NCBI GenBank assembly: GCA_022711465.1
Contig: JAKLEZ010000029.1
Span: 1 to 64,000, forward strand
Reading direction: 5' to 3'
From: Planctomycetota bacterium
GTDB lineage: Bacteria > Planctomycetota > Phycisphaerae > UBA1845 > PWPN01
Length of the DNA stretch: 64,000 bases
Below the pieces are notes generated by a model. It was not told the DNA's origin, made no database searches, and worked only from the letters and a program-made list of their open reading frames with translations. Positions 51,165 through 59,312 of the stretch are shown one piece after another; the stretch's first letter is position 1, and each line of letters begins with the position of its first letter. The position numbers and the translations under genes are program-made.

Positions 51165-51818
51165 ATGGCCGAGGCGACAGTGGACATGCATGTGATCTCC
51201 GTGCCAGTGGACGATGGTCAGATTACGCGTGCGCTCACTGATGTGGACGCGAAGCTGGCCGTCTGGACGGAAGCGATGCTCGACGCCCAGCGGTTGCTGG
51301 CCTCGCTCACGGTCCGGGCGCTCGCCCCGGCCACCGTTGCCGAGGATGAGCCCGCAGGTCAAGCGCCGGCGACTCCCGAGTTGCCGACCACGGCCAGCCC
51401 TGGGACGCAAGCCGAGGTTCCCGCTGAGACGAAGTCATCCCCGGAGGGGCTTTCGGCCAGGAAACAGGCCGCTGTCGAGCCGTCAGCCAACCAGCCGGAC
51501 GTCAAGTCGCAACCGGGTGAATCCACCGTTTGTCGGCTGGCGTCCCCCGAGGTCGTCAAGCCGAACGTCGCGCCGGTGAAGTTCACCGGCACGGTCAACG
51601 TGGAAGTCAAACCGCCGCCGCCAGCGCCGCCTCCCAGTGAAGACGAGCAGTTGCTGGCATCGCTGGATCCGGAAACGGCCAAGGCGATCAAGGTGATGCG
51701 GCGGCTCGCACCCAGCAAGAAGAGCGTGAAGGAGTTGCTGGCCGAGTACCAGGCCAACAAGGCAAGCGCCAAGGCACCGGCACCGGAGAGGAAATCGTGG
51801 TTCTCGAGGGGTAGGTGA
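51165..51818 (+). CDS. Pro/Ala-rich linker protein, first gene of the GTPase cluster
   Basis: The 217-residue protein has a small folded N-terminal part (about 1-62, MHVISVPVDDGQITRALTDVD), a long low-complexity Pro/Ala/Thr/Glu linker (about 63-150, with KPPPPAPPPSEDE) and a helical C-terminus (ETAKAIKVMRRLAPSKKSV). I do not recognise a family. It starts the tightly packed cluster of seven genes and ends five bases before the coiled-coil gene, so co-expression is likely. A structural or adaptor role would fit but is inference. Confidence 0.65.
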   Translation: MAEATVDMHVISVPVDDGQITRALTDVDAKLAVWTEAMLDAQRLLASLTVRALAPATVAEDEPAGQAPATPELPTTASPGTQAEVPAETKSSPEGLSARKQAAVEPSANQPDVKSQPGESTVCRLASPEVVKPNVAPVKFTGTVNVEVKPPPPAPPPSEDEQLLASLDPETAKAIKVMRRLAPSKKSVKELLAEYQANKASAKAPAPERKSWFSRGR

Positions 51819-51823
51819 GGCAA

Positions 51824-52771
51824 ATGAGTCAGAAGAAGACGGAATCCGTGTCAGTCCAGGAAGTGCCGGCCGCGAGGGTGGATATCGAGCACATCCAGTC
51901 GCTTGGGCAGGAAGTGGTCTCGGCGATGCAGTCGATGCGCGAGCTGCTGAGCGCCAGGGCGGATGCCCTGGAGTCCTGCCGGTCGGCGCTCGAGGAGTAC
52001 CGCGAGAAGCTCATCGCCGAGCGGGACTCGCTCAGCCAGCAGGAAACCACCCTCTGCGAGCAGTTCGAATCGCGGCAGCAGAAACTCGAACTGAACGAGC
52101 AGGAACTGACCGCCCGTCAGGCGGCGCTGGCCAAGCAGGAGACCGAGCTGCAAGCCGCTCGCGAGACGCTGGAACGCGAACTGGCCGCGGTCGAGCAGGA
52201 GCGGACCCGACTCAAGACCGACCAGGAAGCCGTCGCCAAGGCCGCCAGCCAGCTCGAATGCGAGCGATCGGAGTGGGAATCCAAGAGGGGAACGTTGTCC
52301 GCCAGCGAAGCCCAGCTGGAGGAGGAGCGAGGCGAAGTGGCCGCCCTGCAGGCCTCGCTGGAAGCCCAAAGAAAGGCGCTGGCTCAGGACGAGGAATCGC
52401 TGCGCAAGCGGCAGGCCTCGCTCGAGGAGCTCACTGCGACGCTGAACGAACGCGAGGCGTTCCTTTCCAAGCAGCATGAGGAGCTGAGCCAGATCCGCAA
52501 GGACTGGGACACCCGGATGCAGGAGCTCAACGCTGCCCAGGAAAGCCTGGCGGCTCTGCAGCGTGATCTTCAGGGCGAGTTGTCCAAGGTCACCGAGCAG
52601 AAGAACGATCTGCTGCCTCGCTACGGGCTGACCGAGACAGGCGGAGGCTCTCCGGCGCAGGCCGACCACGGCCTGCCGGGCGTGCCGACCGAGGAGCAGA
52701 AAGCCCAGTCGGCCCTGGAACGATTCCAGAAACTCTGCAGGGATGCCAAGCGACGGGCAATCGGGGTGTGA
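51824..52771 (+). CDS. Long coiled-coil protein of the GTPase cluster
   Basis: A 315-residue protein in which residues about 20-260 are an almost continuous coiled coil rich in Glu, Gln, Ala, Leu and Ser (for example QKLELNEQELTARQAALAKQ). The C-terminal 50 residues (DLLPRYGLTETGGG, then EQKAQSALERFQKLCRDAKRRA) look like a separate docking tail. No enzymatic motif is seen. It has no transmembrane segment. Its place between an adaptor-like gene and the FGE-fold gene suggests a scaffold. Confidence 0.75.
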   Translation: MSQKKTESVSVQEVPAARVDIEHIQSLGQEVVSAMQSMRELLSARADALESCRSALEEYREKLIAERDSLSQQETTLCEQFESRQQKLELNEQELTARQAALAKQETELQAARETLERELAAVEQERTRLKTDQEAVAKAASQLECERSEWESKRGTLSASEAQLEEERGEVAALQASLEAQRKALAQDEESLRKRQASLEELTATLNEREAFLSKQHEELSQIRKDWDTRMQELNAAQESLAALQRDLQGELSKVTEQKNDLLPRYGLTETGGGSPAQADHGLPGVPTEEQKAQSALERFQKLCRDAKRRAIGV

Positions 52772-52810
52772 GGATGCGGAGAACCGGGAAGTGACCCGAG
52801 GGAAATGACC

Positions 52811-53842
52811 ATGGCCCTGAGACTATTCAGCCGTAGACAGCCGGACCCCGCCGCCCAGCGGGCACGAACCGTCGCCAAGAGGGCGGCCCGGAAACCCGAA
52901 CCCTACGAACCGGCCGAGCCGCTGGTTCTGGAGAAGGACCCGCTTCAGCGGCACATCCAGCTGGAGCGTTACGGCCACGTTGTGCGAAACCGTCAGCAGT
53001 GGGTCGACCACCCGCTGATCGAGTCGGCATTCCAGGCCGCGATCGAGGAGATCGATGCCCACTTCGCCCTCGTTCCGGAGGGTTTTGTATCCCTGAGCCA
53101 GACCATCGTGGACGCCCCGGGTCTGCCCGAACTGGACATCGAGACCGATGCGTTTCTCCTGGGCCGGACTTGCGTCACGAACGGGCAGTTCCAGAAGTTT
53201 CTGGACAACGGCGGGTATGAGGATCTCGATCTGTGGCCCCAGGACATCTGGCCGCACCTGATCGATCTGAAGGACCAGACCGGGCATACGGGTCCGCGTT
53301 TCTGGCGGGAAGGCCGACACAACAAGCTGATCAGCGATCACCCTGTCGTGGGGGTGTCCTACTACGAGGCCGCGGCTTACGCGAAATGGGCCGGTTACCG
53401 TCTGCCCACGGGGGCGGAATGGCAGATGGCCGCCAGCTGGCGGATCCGCAGTTCCGCTCACGTACTCCGCCGGTATCCGTGGGGCGATGCCCTGGACATC
53501 AGCCGGTGCAACATCTGGGCCTCGAACATCGGGCACACCGTCCCGGTGACCGAATACGAGTCCGGCGCCGCCCCCAACGGCGTGCACCAGCTCATCGGCA
53601 ACGTGTGGGAGTGGACTTCCTTCGACTTCACCGCGATCGACGAACTCGCCAGGACGGTGGTCGGAGACATGCTTCTCAAGGAGGTTCGCGGCGGAGCATT
53701 TGACACCTACTTCCCGGCCCAGGCCGCCAGCACTTTCCGGACCGGCCTGGCCAGTCTGACCCGAGCCCATAACGTCGGCTTCCGCTGCGTGCTGGATCTC
53801 ACCCCGAGCGACGCCGCCGACGCCGAAAGGAGACCGGAATGA
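52811..53842 (+). CDS. FGE/SUMF1-fold protein without catalytic cysteines
   Basis: The 343-residue protein has a formylglycine-generating-enzyme (sulfatase-modifying factor) domain from about residue 75. It shows PVVGVSYYEAAAYAKWAGYRLPTGAEWQMAA, PWGD, NGVHQLIGNVWEWTS, the VRGGAF motif and GFRCVLD. In true FGE and related oxidases two Cys lie after RGGS; here the segment after RGGAF contains none, so formylglycine formation is unlikely and a binding role is more probable. I prefer ATG 52811, which fits GAGGGA; 52805 is the alternative. The stop overlaps the GTPase start (ATGA). Confidence 0.85.
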   Translation: MALRLFSRRQPDPAAQRARTVAKRAARKPEPYEPAEPLVLEKDPLQRHIQLERYGHVVRNRQQWVDHPLIESAFQAAIEEIDAHFALVPEGFVSLSQTIVDAPGLPELDIETDAFLLGRTCVTNGQFQKFLDNGGYEDLDLWPQDIWPHLIDLKDQTGHTGPRFWREGRHNKLISDHPVVGVSYYEAAAYAKWAGYRLPTGAEWQMAASWRIRSSAHVLRRYPWGDALDISRCNIWASNIGHTVPVTEYESGAAPNGVHQLIGNVWEWTSFDFTAIDELARTVVGDMLLKEVRGGAFDTYFPAQAASTFRTGLASLTRAHNVGFRCVLDLTPSDAADAERRPE

Positions 53843-54720
53843 CGACCTACGCCGAAGCGGCGGTCGAGAACAGCTGCCTGATCTGCGGGGCCCGAAACCT
53901 CGTGGGGGCCATGGTGTGCTGCGACTGCCAGGCTCCGCTGGCCATCGTCCACGACGTGGCCGCTCAGGAACGTGATCCGCAGATTGTCACCATTCTCGGC
54001 GAGAGCAACGTCGGAAAGACGGTGTACCTTGGGTTCCTCCTGGACATGCTCACCCAGCGGGCCGCGGACTACGAGGCCATTCCCAAAGGCGCCTACTCTG
54101 TGGACCTGCAGCAGAATGTCATCAGCCACATGGCCCGGCGGACCTTTCCGCCCAAGACCGCGATGGAAGCCAACAGCTGGTATTGGGCGTACTACCAGAT
54201 CTACCAGCGGAAGCCGGCCCCCAAGTGGATTGACTTGCTGATGCCGGACATGGCCGGCGAGTCCCTGGCGGCCGAGGTTTCGACGCCCAACACCTTCAAG
54301 GTCATCCGCAGCCTGCTCAAGCTGTCGGCAGGCACGCTCCTCCTGGTGGACGCGGCTATGGCCGCCAACGGCTCGACGCAGCCTGACTTCTTCGCGGTCA
54401 AGATGCTCAGCTACATCGACTCGATGCACCAGGCCAAGCGCGATGAGCGGGTGCAGACCCCCACCGCGATCGTGCTGTGCAAAGCGGATCACTGTCCGGA
54501 GTGTTTTGATCACCCGCGGCGATTCGCCCAGGCCAACCTGAATCGGCTCTGGAACCTGTGCGAGAACCGGTTCTCGAACGTCGAGTTCTTTGCCACCAGC
54601 GTGGTCGGTTCGCTGGGTTACGCGACTGCTCCCGGCGAGGACTACGTCACGCCGATCCCGTTGCACACTGCCCTTCAGGGTGTACTGGAGCCGTTTCAAT
54701 GGGTGACCGACCAGTTGTAG
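53839..54720 (+). CDS. Zinc-ribbon P-loop GTPase, DO-GTPase2 type
   Basis: The 293 residues contain an N-terminal zinc ribbon (CLICGARN and CCDCQAPL, residues 13-33) and a TRAFAC-like GTPase domain. The P-loop is GESNVGKT (54-61), Walker B/DxxG is DMAGE (137-141) and the base-specificity motif is CKAD (214-217), with LLLVDAAM after the switch. This layout matches the double-GTPase 2 family that occurs beside GAP1-type proteins. The GAP1-N2-like gene overlaps its 3' end by 22 bases. GTP binding and hydrolysis are expected; the effector is unknown. Confidence 0.82.
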   Translation: MTTYAEAAVENSCLICGARNLVGAMVCCDCQAPLAIVHDVAAQERDPQIVTILGESNVGKTVYLGFLLDMLTQRAADYEAIPKGAYSVDLQQNVISHMARRTFPPKTAMEANSWYWAYYQIYQRKPAPKWIDLLMPDMAGESLAAEVSTPNTFKVIRSLLKLSAGTLLLVDAAMAANGSTQPDFFAVKMLSYIDSMHQAKRDERVQTPTAIVLCKADHCPECFDHPRRFAQANLNRLWNLCENRFSNVEFFATSVVGSLGYATAPGEDYVTPIPLHTALQGVLEPFQWVTDQL

Positions 54721-55637
54721 TTGCCGAGCCGCCGCCGCTTCCCGGTCCCGCGGCCAGCCATGCGGTCCAGGCCGAGCCGGCACCGGCCGGCGGAGTTGCC
54801 GATCGGCCGCTTCGGGACGTAATCCAGTGCGACCAGGCGGTGTTCACCTCGGTTCACTCGCAGATGGGTGAGGGATACCGGCTGATCGCGATCAGTCCGG
54901 GGTTGCGGCCTGACGAGAAGGTCGAGATCACCCAGCGATCGCCTTCTCATGACAGTCTCTGCGATTCCGGTCCCCACGCTGTGGGCATGCTGGCTTACGC
55001 GATGGCCAGTGGGCGGTACTGCGTGGCTTACTGCAGTCATGCCGGGCGGGAGCATACTGCTCGGGGCGGCCAGCGGGTCTATACCCACATGGTTCTGTTG
55101 ACGCCGGCGGACTTTACCGCTTTCCAGAACAATCCGGTGCGTATTCACGCCCTGCTGGCCGATCTCGTCTCCCGGCAAGGGCCGATGCTCAAGGTCGTTC
55201 CCCGCGTGGAGCGACTCGGCCTTCCGGTCATGAAGCCGAGTTGGGGCAAGGGCTGCGGGGGTTTTCGCCCGCCCGCCTCGCAGGCGGAGGCGGAGTGGAT
55301 CTGGAGCATGGCGGACGCTCTTCAGTCCGGGCGGCGGCTGGTTCTGGCGGGCGTGCGGGAGCCGTTGCGTCTGCTTGAGTGGGCGGTCCTGTGTCTGAAG
55401 CTTCGTGTTCGCCGGGGGATGGACGTATCGGCGGGCCTCAAGTACGCCCCTGGCCGAAGGATGCAGCTTGTTCTGCTCCCGAAGGAGGATGCCCAGACCC
55501 AGCGTCTGATTGCCGGTCAGGACGTTGAGTTGCGTCGGGTGGGTCAGCCGGCCCCGCCTCCTCTGCCGGGGTTCCTGCCGTGGGCGAACCTGCTGCGGGC
55601 CTGGTATGCCCAGCGCGAGGTTATCGGCCCCAGGTGA
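54699..55637 (+). CDS. GAP1-N2-like GTPase-associated protein, short form
   Basis: A 312-residue protein starting inside the GTPase gene (ATG 54699 with GGAG upstream). After a Pro-rich 35-residue N-terminus, residues 44-135 read QAVFTSVHSQMGEGYRLIAI, a GTP-associated protein 1 type-2 (GAP1-N2) pattern with SPGLRPDEK and HDSLCD, and HMVLLTPADF. The remainder is alpha/beta (VLAGVREPLRLLEW, MQLVLLPKEDAQ). Full GAP1 proteins add large GAP1-M and GAP1-C parts; those are absent, so this looks like a minimal version. The family call is by eye and the least certain in the cluster. Confidence 0.65.
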   Translation: MGDRPVVVAEPPPLPGPAASHAVQAEPAPAGGVADRPLRDVIQCDQAVFTSVHSQMGEGYRLIAISPGLRPDEKVEITQRSPSHDSLCDSGPHAVGMLAYAMASGRYCVAYCSHAGREHTARGGQRVYTHMVLLTPADFTAFQNNPVRIHALLADLVSRQGPMLKVVPRVERLGLPVMKPSWGKGCGGFRPPASQAEAEWIWSMADALQSGRRLVLAGVREPLRLLEWAVLCLKLRVRRGMDVSAGLKYAPGRRMQLVLLPKEDAQTQRLIAGQDVELRRVGQPAPPPLPGFLPWANLLRAWYAQREVIGPR

Positions 55638-55799
55638 TTCTCGGGCATCTTGGCATGTCCTGACCTTATCAGGTGCTTTCCACTGACCGATAGAAGCGAT
55701 GGAGTCACCGTCTGTGTTCACCCATGGCCGTGGGTGGGGCGACTTGGGCCTCCGGGTTGACGGTCCACGGAAGGGCCGGTCTGGTGAAGCGAGGATCGC

Positions 55800-57047
55800 A
55801 TGAGCAAGCGGGAGCAATATCGGCTGGGCATGTCCGCGTACAATGCCGGCCGGTACGAGAAGGCCATTGAGCTGTTGACGCCGTTGGTGACGATGAACAG
55901 CAGCCCCCAGGGTCTGTTGTCCCGTTTCTACCTGGGCCAAGCTCACTACCACCTGGGCGTGCGTCTGTTCGAGACGCAGAAGTACCAGGATGCCACCAAC
56001 CACTTCCAGAATGCCGCAGGCGTCAACTCCAATGGCGGCGGGATCGCGAGGTTCCTGGTGAACTGCTATGTCGCCGACGGGCGTTACGACATGGCGGTTC
56101 GTGAACTCGAGTCGATGCTGGGGCAGGATCCGGGGAATGCCGGGTTGCGGATTCGGCTGGCCCTTGCCCAGTACAAGCAGGGCAGTCCGCTGGCGGCCCT
56201 GAGCACGATTCGGGAGGGCATTGCCCGGCAGCCGGACCATGCGGAGCTTCAGTACCAGCTGGGGATCATGCTTGCCGGGGAAGACGAGTTTGCGGAAGCC
56301 GAACGGTGCTTTGAGATGACCATTGCCTGCGAGCCGACTCACGCCGGGGCGTACGAGCGTCTGGCTCAGATCTGCGCGGTGACCGGCCGGTCTGACCGGG
56401 CCCTGGAGTACCTCGAGCAGGCTCACGCGTTGGATCCGTGGAATGCCCGCATTGCCTTCCAGCTGAGCGTGCTGGGGCAAGGTGAGGTTATCGGTGGTCG
56501 TCGAGAGCGGATCGCCTGGCGGCTGCCCACCGCTCCGGGGGCTGCGGAGCCAGGCGAGATCGACCGGCTGAGCGAGTTGCTGGCGAGTGAGCCGGACTTC
56601 GTCTCCGCGTTTCTGGCCTTACCGGAGAGCGAGGTTGACGAGGAGGTCTTTTCGACGCTGGCGGCGACGCTGGAGCGGGCCCTGGAGAACCATCCGGAAT
56701 ACGCTGACCTCCATTTCCACTGCGGGGCGGTGTACCGGCGGCTTGGTCGCCGGGTGGACGCCATCGAGCACACCGAGCAGGCGGTCGAGATCAATCCCGG
56801 GTACGTCAACGCCCTCATCCAGCTCGCGGAGCTTTACAGCCAGACCGACCAATGGGCGATGGGCATCGAGCGGCTCGAGCAGGCGATCGAGAAGGGAGCG
56901 GACTATCCGGACGTCCACTGCCTGATCGGGCGGCTGTACCAGACCGGCGGCCAGACGGGGCGAGCCCGGCTGGCGTTTGAGCGCGCGTTGAGTCTGAATC
57001 AGAACTATCGAACGGCCAAGGAAGCACTTGCCTCGCTGCCTGCGTAA
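55800..57047 (+). CDS. TPR protein 1 of the GTPase cluster
   Basis: The 415-residue protein is built of about eight to nine tetratricopeptide repeats (KREQYRLGMSAYNAGRYEKA at the start; FHCGAVYRRLGRRVDAIEHT and LIQLAELYSQTDQWAMGIER late). Around residues 225-290 is a non-TPR insert (PGAAEPGEIDRLSELLASE). The start has GAGGATCGC upstream. It is separated from the GAP1-like gene by 162 bases that show no terminator, and from TPR protein 2 by 10 bases. A protein-docking role is likely. Confidence 0.85.
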   Translation: MSKREQYRLGMSAYNAGRYEKAIELLTPLVTMNSSPQGLLSRFYLGQAHYHLGVRLFETQKYQDATNHFQNAAGVNSNGGGIARFLVNCYVADGRYDMAVRELESMLGQDPGNAGLRIRLALAQYKQGSPLAALSTIREGIARQPDHAELQYQLGIMLAGEDEFAEAERCFEMTIACEPTHAGAYERLAQICAVTGRSDRALEYLEQAHALDPWNARIAFQLSVLGQGEVIGGRRERIAWRLPTAPGAAEPGEIDRLSELLASEPDFVSAFLALPESEVDEEVFSTLAATLERALENHPEYADLHFHCGAVYRRLGRRVDAIEHTEQAVEINPGYVNALIQLAELYSQTDQWAMGIERLEQAIEKGADYPDVHCLIGRLYQTGGQTGRARLAFERALSLNQNYRTAKEALASLPA

Positions 57048-57057
57048 AGGGGGAAGA

Positions 57058-58740
57058 ATGTCCTACTTGGTGGAAACTCTGGGTCGGGGCTGGATCAGCC
57101 GGCTTTCGGACGCCTTCCAGGAACAGATGCAGCAGACCGAGGTGCGGGACTTGGAGACCCTGAACCGTCTGGTGGCGGCGGAACCGGGCCGAGCGGACCT
57201 GCATCGCGAGCTGGGATTTCACTACCTCCAGACCGGCGATCTGGGCCGAGCCCGGGACGCGTTTCTCGATGCCGCCCGGCTGGACCCCACATCGACGCTG
57301 GCCCGGATCGCGGCGGCCTGCTGTCTCGAGTCGATCGGGCTGCTGACCGAGGCCTACGAGCAGCTGGGCGTCGCGGTCGCCCTGGACGGCAAGGACCCGG
57401 CGATCCAGTTTGCCCTTGGGTATTGTGCCGAGCGGCTGGGTCAAACCGGCCAGGCCGAGAGCCACTATAAAGAATCTTTGAGAACCTGCCCAGGCCTGCG
57501 GAACGCGCGCGAGCGGCTGGCCGCGATTCACTTGCGGCAGAATCGCATGGATGATGCCATCGATCAATACGAGGAGCTCCTCACCGACGATCCCGGCGAC
57601 GTCGATCTGCACCTGACGCTGGCCAATTTGTACCTGCGGAACCAGGACCCCGACGCGGCCATTCAGGCTTTCGAGAACGCCCTGACCATTGAGCCGGACA
57701 ACTGGCAAGCCCGCACCGACCTGGCGGACACGTACGAGCAAGCCGGCCTGCTCCGCGAGGCCATCGAGCAGCTTCACGTGCAGATTCACAAGCACCCGGA
57801 GGCGCCGGACCAGTACCTGAAGCTAGGCGATCTTTACACGCGGGTGGGCAACGATCAGGCGGCCCTGCAGTACTACATGAAGGCGATCCAGCTTCACCCG
57901 GGGTATCTCGAGGCGATGGTCAAGATCGGCACGCACTATCTGCGGGCTGGCCAGTACGTAGAGTCGGCCACCTGGTTTGCGCGAGCCATTGAGATCAATG
58001 ATCGGCTGCTCACCGCCTATGTTGGTTTGGGGGTCGCCCAGTTCGAGGCGGGGCGTGAGTCGGAAGCCCTGGCGAGCATTGATCTGGCGTCGAGCATTGA
58101 GCCGAACAGCACGCTGCTCTACACCGAAATTGCCCGGATCCAGCTCAAGTGTGGGGTTCAGCAGGAAGCCGGCCGGCACCTGGAGACCGCCCCGCCGGAC
58201 GTGGCCGGAGCCACCGACGATCGGCTGGACGATCTGGTTGACCAGCAGATTGAACGGCACCGTCAGGCGGCGGAGGTCCACCCGAACCACCCGGACGTGC
58301 ACTACCGGCTGGGCCTGTTGCTTCGTCATCGTGGCTGGATCGACGAGGCCATCATCCACTTCCAGCATGCGGTGGAGATCAATCCGTCCTATGCGAAGGC
58401 GCTGATCAAGCTGGGCTTGGCCCTGCACGAGACGGGTCGCACCGATGATGCGATCGAGACGCTGCAGCAGGCTCTGGAGTTCAATCCGCAATACGTGGAC
58501 CTGCACTATCGGCTGGGGACGCTGTTTGCCGGCCGTCAGCAATTCGATCTGGCGGTGGAGCATTTCACTCACGCGGTGAACGGCAATCCGCGGAGTCTCG
58601 ATTTTCGCGAGAACCTGGCCATCGCCCTGGAGAACATGGGCATGATTGACCGGGCGAAGGCGATGTGGCACCGCATCTGTGAGCAGGCCCCGGAAAGCGA
58701 GAACGCGGCCCGAGCACGAACGGCCCTGAGTCAGCACTGA
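57058..58740 (+). CDS. TPR protein 2 of the GTPase cluster
   Basis: A 560-residue protein of about 14 TPR units (for example LHLTLANLYLRNQDPDAAIQ, VHYRLGLLLRHRGWIDEAII, LHYRLGTLFAGRQQFDLAVE). A linker with TDDRLDDLVDQQIERHRQA splits the array at about residue 395. It is a paralogue of the preceding gene and shares its repeat phase. The N-terminal 45 residues (SYLVETLGRGWISRLSDAFQ) are not TPR. GGGGGAAGA precedes the ATG. Last gene of the cluster. Confidence 0.87.
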   Translation: MSYLVETLGRGWISRLSDAFQEQMQQTEVRDLETLNRLVAAEPGRADLHRELGFHYLQTGDLGRARDAFLDAARLDPTSTLARIAAACCLESIGLLTEAYEQLGVAVALDGKDPAIQFALGYCAERLGQTGQAESHYKESLRTCPGLRNARERLAAIHLRQNRMDDAIDQYEELLTDDPGDVDLHLTLANLYLRNQDPDAAIQAFENALTIEPDNWQARTDLADTYEQAGLLREAIEQLHVQIHKHPEAPDQYLKLGDLYTRVGNDQAALQYYMKAIQLHPGYLEAMVKIGTHYLRAGQYVESATWFARAIEINDRLLTAYVGLGVAQFEAGRESEALASIDLASSIEPNSTLLYTEIARIQLKCGVQQEAGRHLETAPPDVAGATDDRLDDLVDQQIERHRQAAEVHPNHPDVHYRLGLLLRHRGWIDEAIIHFQHAVEINPSYAKALIKLGLALHETGRTDDAIETLQQALEFNPQYVDLHYRLGTLFAGRQQFDLAVEHFTHAVNGNPRSLDFRENLAIALENMGMIDRAKAMWHRICEQAPESENAARARTALSQH

Positions 58741-59312
58741 TCTCCATCCTGAGGAATGGCATTCGGTCGGACCCGAAACGGGCGACGGGGGCGTTTTGGA
58801 GGGTGTCGTTCGCCCTGGGAACGTTTCTTTGGGGCCGGAGTGGCGGTCGAGTGGGGCAGGCGTTCTCCAGCCGAACGAAGCCATTGGCTGGGCGCAGGAA
58901 CCGCGTTTTTGGTGCCGCCAGGGGGGGTTCTGCCCTCGATTCCTAGAGACCTCAAGCGCCAAACGAAGCCAATTGAACGATCGGCGGTCGGCGATCAGCG
59001 GTCGGCGGTCAGCGGTCGGCGGTCAGCTGGCAGCCAGCTGTTGGCCGGAGAGGTGGGCGGGAGAAGCTATCGGGATTTCAAAGAGCTGGGAGGCGGACCG
59101 CGAGGATCGTCCTCTATGCTCATATCACTTGTCCCGTCCCGGGCCGGGAGAAGCAGTCAGCGGTCGGCAAGAGGAAACGGATGGGACCCCTAGGCGAAAA
59201 GACGCGGGGAGCGGAATGTGCACAGATAGGGGCGGTATGTGGCCTAAAAATCATCCTGACACCTTTTCTGTTGGGTAGGCAGAGGGATGGGTTTGTGTTA
59301 TGATAACTGTTG
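58741..59312. other. Non-coding region with short tandem repeats
   Basis: No supported gene. Two plus-strand open frames cover it but lack ribosome sites, and their composition follows the repeats at 58978-59033 and 59154-59167. The last 50 bases contain an A/T-richer stretch that may carry the promoter of the YbjN-like gene. Confidence 0.5.
58978..59033. repeat. Heptanucleotide tandem repeat
   Basis: Eight consecutive 7-base units of the form CGGTCGG / CGGTCAG (first CGATCGG, third CGATCAG, last CTGGCAG). The period is not a multiple of three, so it is not coding. Two further units (CAGTCAG-CGGTCGG) occur at 59154-59167. Confidence 0.8.

Follow-up and report, generated by a model that had tools for sequence, protein, structure and literature searches.

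A conserved five-gene GTPase module of Planctomycetota whose GAP1-N2 partner is predicted to resemble longin-DENN proteins

The locus and its conserved unit

The stretch of DNA analyzed here, hereafter the window, comprises 64,000 nucleotides of a Planctomycetota bacterium and sits on contig 22 of a 7.46-Mb genome in 86 contigs. Our subject is a run of plus-strand genes within it, at whose core the gene of a zinc-ribbon GTPase (g4) overlaps that of a GAP1-N2 protein (g5). A reading made from the letters alone (the sequence-only reading) had described seven plus-strand open reading frames (ORFs), g1 to g7, as one compact cluster, and we found the ORFs, their coordinates and overlaps, and the GESNVGKT, DMAGE, and CKAD motifs of g4 to be as described. 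The g4 gene (53839-54720, plus strand) encodes a DO-GTPase of predicted Ras-superfamily fold, marked by Cys13/16/27/30, GESNVGKT, DMAGE141, and K215xD217, and its product scored above the curated Pfam cut-offs for both DO-GTPase1 (6.8e-11; 42.4 bits, cut-off 27) and DO-GTPase2 (1.2e-9; 38.7 bits, cut-off 27). The g5 gene (54699-55637, plus strand), which overlaps g4 by 22 bases, matched GAP1-N2 (1e-8; 35.7 bits, curated cut-off 24), so that the families proposed for this pair from the sequence were confirmed. Its product is predicted to consist of a longin domain (residues ~40-180) followed by a DENN-like alpha/beta domain (~185-312), with a candidate arginine-finger loop encoded at 55014-55091 (plus strand; residues 106-131) that holds R106, strand beta4, the sequence EHTARGGQR with E118 and R122, and the start of beta5.

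Three genes precede this pair on the same strand. The g3 gene (ORF 52805-53842) overlaps g4 by ATGA and probably starts at ATG 52811, given that the MALRLF start is conserved; its product begins with MALRLFSRR, has an FGE/EgtB-type (C-type lectin-like) fold without the FGE cysteine pair, and matched FGE-sulfatase (PF03781) at 7.3e-39, above the curated cut-off. The g2 gene (ORF 51815-52771, start probably ATG 51824) encodes a coiled-coil protein with the near-invariant C-terminal motif ERFQKLCRDAKRRAIG. The g1 gene (51165-51818) encodes an Ala/Pro-rich linker protein of 217 residues with a conserved C-terminal motif (LLASLDPETAKAIKVMRRL...KSVKELL...KSWFSR), for which a Pfam scan returned no family at E<=1. 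The FGE-fold protein, the coiled coil, and the lack of a visible effector, all noted in the sequence-only reading, were borne out for the window genes.

We compared gene order across 35 long loci, all fetched via g4 and consisting of all 15 loci of one search and 20 hand-picked from 77 genomes (L046 and L050 are the same contig, so the loci represent 34 distinct contigs). The order g3-g4-g5 was collinear in all 35, g2 lay upstream of it in 32 (all except L041, L052, and L067), and the C-terminal motif of g1 was present in 27. The g1-g5 module of Pro-rich, coiled-coil, FGE-fold, GTPase, and GAP1 genes is certainly real, and its conservation lies far beyond chance. The conserved unit is confined to g1-g5 (~51165-55637) because the TPR genes g6 and g7 accompany the module in only 1 of the 35 loci, L048, which belongs to the same genus as the window; a few loci end less than 2 kb past g5. 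The conserved order claimed for the whole cluster therefore stands for five genes in this neighborhood survey and falls for the TPR pair, which we rule out as members of the system. We also placed the end of the module at g5 given that the flanking genes are mostly unrelated between loci and that, among the 33 loci counted (L042 has no g5 in the greedy gene set, and L067 ends in g5), the gene directly downstream of g5 lies on the strand opposite to it in 18 and shares its strand in 15. The gene calls at the homologous loci were ORF-based and greedy, which makes the flank genes approximate.

Relatives of g4 (E<=0.001) occurred in 77 of 120 related genomes, including 48 of the 71 well-assembled ones, and are 52-100% identical to the window copy over most of the protein, with G012 a fragment and two weak rows excluded (the sole row of G041 and the second row in G023). 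A wider phylum sample contained a g4 relative at E<=1e-20 in 9 of 392 genomes, the window genome included; the other eight positives were seven genomes from a single distant family (f85) and one from another (f44), and within f85 itself, 46 of 119 genomes had a relative (39 of the 88 well-assembled ones). All eight distant loci carry g3, g4, and g5 in the same order as the window. There is usually one copy of g4 per genome; G010 has two, the divergent L052 and an ordinary copy (L051). The labels of the related loci include Planctomycetota, Phycisphaerae, Phycisphaerales, Sedimentisphaerales, one Planctomycetaceae, and one Deltaproteobacteria (L045), and this last label is probably wrong because the module and its flanking genes are shared with L042.

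The GTPase and its GAP1-N2 partner

The g4 and g5 alignments held 38 rows each, drawn from 42 and 41 different sequences after near-identical rows were removed. Invariant in 38/38 g4 sequences were Cys 13, 16, 27, and 30; G54, N57, G59, and K60; and D137, A139, G140, E141, K215, and D217. The AlphaFold model of g4 (pLDDT 86.1) has a Ras-superfamily fold, with Rap1, Ras, RagD, an Asgard RagA-like GTPase, and Arl3 tied as structural matches at Z ~14; a search of PDB sequences with the g4 profile gave weak unrelated rows only. Glu141 presumably occupies the position of Ras Gln61. In our own reading, E141 is the conserved Walker B-region Glu meant by Kaur et al. (2020), whose main text names the DO-GTPases and GAP1 and predicts roles for them in biological conflict (PMC7159879).

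GAP1-N2 was matched by all 38 aligned g5 orthologues at E<=10 (best 1.3e-17), and neither GAP1-M nor GAP1-C was among the 16 Pfam families matched by these members at that threshold (coverage of the library was unchecked). The window copy had been called a minimal GAP1, a description that does not hold given that the 41 different orthologues span 304-509 residues and the window copy, at 312, is merely among the shortest. The AlphaFold model of g5 (pLDDT 87.8, pTM 0.85) runs beta-beta-alpha-beta-beta-beta-alpha and then continues into an alpha/beta domain. This order of secondary-structure elements is that of the longin domain. When the model was compared with known structures by VIA-align, rows 1-26 of 50 were all longin, roadblock, longin-DENN, or TagF by title (Z 9.1-5.3), and other sensor domains (RhlR, GAF, LOV) appeared from row 27 on, starting at Z 5.1. 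The matches that spanned both domains (residues 38/40-312) were TagF (Z 9.1), DENND1B (8.9), DENND1A (8.6), and DENND10 (8.3), and the top two Foldseek rows, at E ~6e-4, were TagF and a folliculin chain. A further match, at Z 6.8, was the C-terminal region of a Rag-like GTPase from Asgard (9m28), which we take to be roadblock-like. On these models, a longin fold for g5 is highly probable, and a DENN-like second domain is moderately favored; the C-terminal part of the protein is comparatively variable. The longin-DENN-like nature of g5 had been overlooked in the sequence-only reading.

All 38 aligned window-group g5 sequences have Arg106, Glu118, Arg122, and Arg126; their loop between beta4 and beta5 reads E-H-T-[AG]-R-G-G-x-R-V-x-T, and Arg122 falls between model strands 107-117 and 125-134. 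When 8 distant copies and 13 other planctomycete GAP1-N2 domains were added (the 13 come from 11 genomes; their Pfam-matched stretches were aligned in two MAFFT modes with the same result), Arg122 was kept in 59/59 sequences and position 118 was Glu or Asp in 59/59. Among the other planctomycete GAP1-N2 proteins, the window g5 profile picked up only L098. Arg126 was dropped as a finger, given that 7/8 distant copies have Gln there and the 13 other domains show a gap at this position. Arg106 varies too; Arg122 is the candidate finger because it is kept throughout while these two vary. Human FLCN reads LARGFQRWYS, with Arg164 (chain 6ulg_L numbering) at the motif place of g5 Arg122, a correspondence at the level of the sequence motif. 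FLCN Arg164 is the catalytic finger. Within the longin-DENN proteins, a solved complex shows Arg147 of SMCR8 pointing toward the phosphate analogue (as presented in PMC8213707), and a 2026 preprint takes an arginine finger located in the longin subdomain, between beta4 and beta5, as the defining mark of DENN GTPase-activating proteins (GAPs; PMC12803157). We place the chance that g5 acts as a GAP through Arg122 at about even.

Scaffold and FGE-fold proteins and the neighboring genes

Across loci, g3 is 47-98% identical to the window copy, and among solved structures it aligns best with EgtB and OvsA. In the comparison with FGE (2q17), the segment YLCHDSYC stands opposite F---DTYF, and the cysteine pair is missing. 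We take the YLCHDSYC cysteines to be the FGE catalytic pair. The segment was found in 43 of 44 g3 proteins, none of which has a Cys pair in it, and 15 of the 43 have one Cys elsewhere in it; FGE enzyme activity was rejected for g3 on account of the missing pair. A DinB-type domain was not detected in g3 by Pfam. In f85, all seven g3 proteins have N-terminal transmembrane-like segments, and the f44 copy has none; in 42 of the 44 window-group proteins, the start is a short stretch, hydrophobic and basic, that resembles MALRLFSRK. A remark in PMC11237479 also suggests a membrane link, in that a member of the DO-GTPase family encoded in some psp operons is predicted there to act in membrane-related stress. 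The ordinary module copy of G010 is followed by a further FGE-like ORF (L051 8187-9569) that is 26% identical to g3.

The coiled coil of g2 drifts between loci, and its ending is kept as a pattern in 37/38 aligned sequences (the frame of L042 lacks it). In 7/7 f85 loci, the gene preceding g3 has, by reading, the related ending MAQF(A/S)K(L/V)QRD, and the g2 profile matches weakly in 4/8 distant loci, the f44 match being an ORF that is probably not g2. The g1 protein is comparatively variable and is recognized across loci by the motif LLASLDPETAKAIxVxRRL...KSxxELL...KxSWWxR. When sought in the last 90 residues of each ORF with no filters, this motif was found, in the 35 loci, to end 21 same-strand upstream proteins with lengths of 173-545 residues as well as 6 ORFs on the opposite strand, 863-1632 codons long. 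As for the eight loci without the motif, L039, L041, and L057 begin at or near the contig start, the ORF concerned is cut off in L065, L036 has only a g1-like N-terminal ORF, and L052, L054, and L067 show none. Giant coiled-coil ORFs of ~860-1630 codons, transcribed away from the module, were seen in L043, L044, L047, L063, L064, L065, and L066; six of them end in the g1 motif, that of L065 is cut by the end of the stretch, and the longest runs antisense over g2, so that its true start must lie further in. The weak PADLOC, NCBIfam, and Pfam matches of g2 and the Pfam matches of the giant ORFs were taken as coiled-coil noise.

Downstream of the module in the window lie g6 (55800-57047, plus strand) and g7 (start probably ATG 57058, end 58740, plus strand), both TPR proteins by Pfam and both neighbors outside the conserved unit. 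The g7 product passes the NCBIfam cut-off for MamA (220.3 versus 200 bits), which was not accepted as an identity and is most likely a TPR-repeat artefact of the MamA model; the PADLOC and NCBIfam matches of g6 and g7 were likewise read as TPR noise. Short GC-rich direct repeats (ggtcggcggtcag type) were seen by eye at 58970-59030, just 3' of the TPR genes. The surroundings of the module are partly conserved in f85, and in the six loci L078-L083 an opposite-strand ORF just downstream of g5 presumably starts like FliN/FliM (start sequence only). A second locus of the window genome, L101 (G000:C34:64000-79000), encodes two DO-GTPase2-like proteins (0.002 and 1.2e-5) and a GAP1-N2-like protein (0.0028), all below cut-off, and is by sequence a candidate for a more typical GTPase-GAP1 system.

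A proposed GTPase switch and known systems

We hypothesize that g1-g5 encode one GTP-controlled assembly, and we infer that their products form a physical complex. In this model, g4 would be a Ras-like GTPase switch with a zinc ribbon, and g5, with the architecture of a eukaryotic longin-DENN protein, would dock on the switch regions as the regulator dedicated to g4. The g5 protein would most likely be a GAP that places Arg122 of the beta4-beta5 loop into the active site, like SMCR8 and as proposed for Avl9. Having lost the FGE catalytic cysteines, g3 may serve as a binding platform at or near the membrane, and g2 and g1 could be elongated scaffold proteins that attach to g3, g4, or g5 through their conserved C-terminal motifs. 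The loading of GTP would then recruit or release the scaffolds, through which a supramolecular structure might be set up, positioned, or dismantled. A GTP-switched scaffold assembly was also the proposal of the sequence-only reading, and it is still the best one. A scaffolded GTPase switch with g5 as its GAP, serving housekeeping rather than defense, carries about half of our confidence; the more specific role of a membrane scaffold is put forward tentatively. More doubtful is the broader claim that GAP1 proteins are bacterial longin-DENN GAPs, related by descent to FLCN, SMCR8, and Avl9 and using the same arginine finger between beta4 and beta5, and that the Rag/Rab-like GTPase, DENN-like regulator, and long coiled-coil tether of Planctomycetota make up a membrane-associated scaffold system inherited largely vertically.

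The strongest of the alternatives, which we nevertheless consider unlikely, is that the module represents, in planctomycetes, the kind of NTP-dependent conflict system predicted by Kaur et al., with a GTPase-GAP1 threshold switch and with the FGE-fold protein or an unlinked gene as effector. The core families are the same, the main text of Kaur et al. describes planctomycete GAP1-N2 systems with FGE-fold (FGS) domains as effectors, and the same genome holds the DO-GTPase2/GAP1-N2-like locus L101, below the Pfam cut-offs. The manner of inheritance argues otherwise. In a quick g4 tree (43 rows), the family labels need 10 changes, where the lowest possible number is 7 and shuffled labels average 26.8 (0/200 shuffles as low); f7 and f85 form one group each, f8 needs five changes, and f1 and f4 need three each. 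The pairwise distances of g3, g4, and g5 correlate at r 0.79-0.83 (0/999 permutations as high) across the 41 loci that remained once short fragments were removed, which fits genes travelling together. These patterns fit a mainly vertical descent of the module, accompanied by losses and by a second, divergent lineage (L052, L067). No relative was encoded in the viral contigs searched, including the 27 stretches that matched a pattern (phage records were not searched), and the plasmids searched gave no match, so a mobile or viral origin was rejected. Neither g3 (47-98% identical to the window copy) nor g4 (52-99%, leaving aside the two weak rows) is hypervariable, g4 is usually present once per genome, and a PADLOC scan of g1, g3, g4, and g5 gave no match at E<=0.01. 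Pfam found no effector domain and no fibronectin III protein among the seven window genes (for fibronectin III, the best 25 families were considered for g6 and g7, and the flanks of the relatives were not scanned). The conflict system suggested by the sequence-only reading is thus disfavored by mostly vertical inheritance, the usual single copy, the failure to find a variable effector or a viral or plasmid copy, and the PADLOC result, and we regard a role in immunity as improbable.

A still less probable alternative leaves the rest of the switch unchanged and replaces the GAP activity of g5 by that of a guanine-nucleotide exchange factor (GEF), as in DENN proteins of the DENND1 type. GEF activity of g5 is possible because most DENN proteins are regarded as Rab GEFs, and DENND1B (Z 8.9) and DENND1A (8.6) are among its best two-domain matches; this alternative is opposed by the universally kept residues 118 and 122, which lie in the beta4-beta5 loop at the arginine-finger site of DENN/longin GAPs. 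Least probable is that g5 shares only a common alpha/beta arrangement with longin-DENN proteins, without homology, and acts as an adaptor reading the GTPase state, since the lack of a sequence-level match, the modest Z, the low TM-scores, and the sensor domains RhlR, GAF, and LOV from row 27 on are countered by best rows (26/50) that are all longin, roadblock, longin-DENN, or TagF before sensors start at Z 5.1, by a Ras-like GTPase as neighbor, and by the coinciding arginine loop.

The scaffolded switch with g5 as GAP has its own difficulties, to which the general standing of DENN proteins as Rab GEFs belongs. As for the module, 43 of the 120 relatives have no g4 match, a divergent form in L052 and L067 consists of g3-g4-g5 only, with g1 and g2 not found, and the transmembrane-like segments of f85 occur in 0/44 window-group g3 proteins. 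The g4 tree, at 10 label changes, is not strictly vertical, and the distance correlation could stem from shared ancestry alone. As for the fold of g5, the four two-domain matches align 222-239 residues at a root-mean-square deviation (rmsd) of 4.7-5.6 A, and Foldseek gives low TM-scores, 0.38 with TagF and, at an rmsd of 35 A, 0.19 with the folliculin chain. Best Z scores of 7-8 are common in VIA-align for models without true kin, and the 9.1 of g5 is slightly above these; a longin/PAS-like fold can also recur. The g5 profile searched against the PDB at E<=5 returned weak unrelated rows and no longin or DENN chain. The fold claims for both g4 and g5 rest on predicted structures, because their PDB profile searches gave weak unrelated rows only, and homology of g5 to longin-DENN proteins is plausible but unproven, given the modest Z and the lack of a sequence-profile link. 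Finally, Gln125 (14/38), Arg126, and Tyr128, at which the window copy equals FLCN, are not general, so that the solid overlap with FLCN is the R-G and its position.

If g5 is nevertheless what its model suggests, the consequences would reach beyond this locus. The origin of the DENN module bears on the origin of eukaryotic membrane traffic, and the part of a 2012 survey that deals with the module treats it as arising in the eukaryotic stem (PMC3521125). A bacterial longin-DENN-like protein that is tied genetically to a Ras-like GTPase, with the finger loop in place, would make this question testable with two small proteins. Through it, the GAP1 family, so far only named, would gain a mechanism, and the view that every DO-GTPase/GAP1 system serves immunity would be put in question. 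Were GAP1 proteins bacterial longin-DENN GAPs by descent, the DENN module would predate eukaryotes. The module suggests a bacterial counterpart of eukaryotic GTPase regulation.

Part of the set is already known, given that a 2020 publication presented the DO-GTPase/GAP1-N2 pairing, together with the FGE-fold proteins that accompany it in planctomycetes, under the heading of predicted conflict systems. The set is therefore less new than the sequence-only reading had supposed, since planctomycete GAP1-N2 systems with FGS domains are mentioned in the main text of Kaur et al. (PMC7159879), whereas a longin-DENN-like partner was not found in print. That main text, taken without its supplements, contains no occurrence of longin, roadblock, or DENN, and the titles and abstract openings of the open-access literature gave no report of a longin-DENN reading for the GAP1-N2 partner of a DO-GTPase; the predicted longin and DENN-like domains of g5 thus appear to be the new element. 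The module resembles the GAP1-N2 systems of Kaur et al., as far as their main text describes them, in its DO-GTPase with an N-terminal zinc ribbon, in the GAP1-N2 gene just downstream, and in the FGS domains found in some planctomycetes. Unlike them, it has no second GTPase or recognized effector among the seven window genes, although an unlinked or unrecognized effector is possible, and it has two scaffold genes with conserved C-terminal motifs and mostly vertical inheritance. Its neighbors vary between loci, but on either strand (18 opposite and 15 same of 33).

Among eukaryotic proteins, g5 is most like the longin-DENN GAPs (FLCN-FNIP, GATOR1, C9orf72-SMCR8, and Avl9/DENND6, as covered in parts of PMC8213707 and PMC12803157) in its predicted longin and then DENN-like domain and in the Ras-superfamily GTPase encoded next door. 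The likeness extends to an Arg in the beta4-beta5 loop, where LARGFQR of FLCN compares with TARGGQR of g5. It differs from them in that g5 has no detectable sequence homology and no recognized d-DENN part, and g4 differs from their partners in having Glu at what we take to be the Ras Gln61 position. TagF, the type VI secretion repressor, is the best structural match of g5 (Z 9.1 over 237 residues, by structure comparison only) and differs from it in function; we know of no tie between TagF and a DO-GTPase. A longin similarity of TagF has already been published (noted in PMC3325213). Like the FGE/EgtB family, g3 matches PF03781 and has EgtB and OvsA as its best solved structures; unlike that family, it lacks the FGE cysteine pair and is strongly conserved as part of a GTPase module. 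A bacterial parallel is the MglA-MglB polarity module, in which MglB consists of a roadblock domain, a circular permutation of the longin arrangement (as stated in PMC3521125). Although the g5 model has the longin order and g4 is a DO-GTPase with a zinc ribbon, the two systems are alike in pairing a bacterial Ras-like GTPase with a longin-related partner, a combination that in MglA-MglB controls a spatial structure (PMC3521125; PMC6785124).

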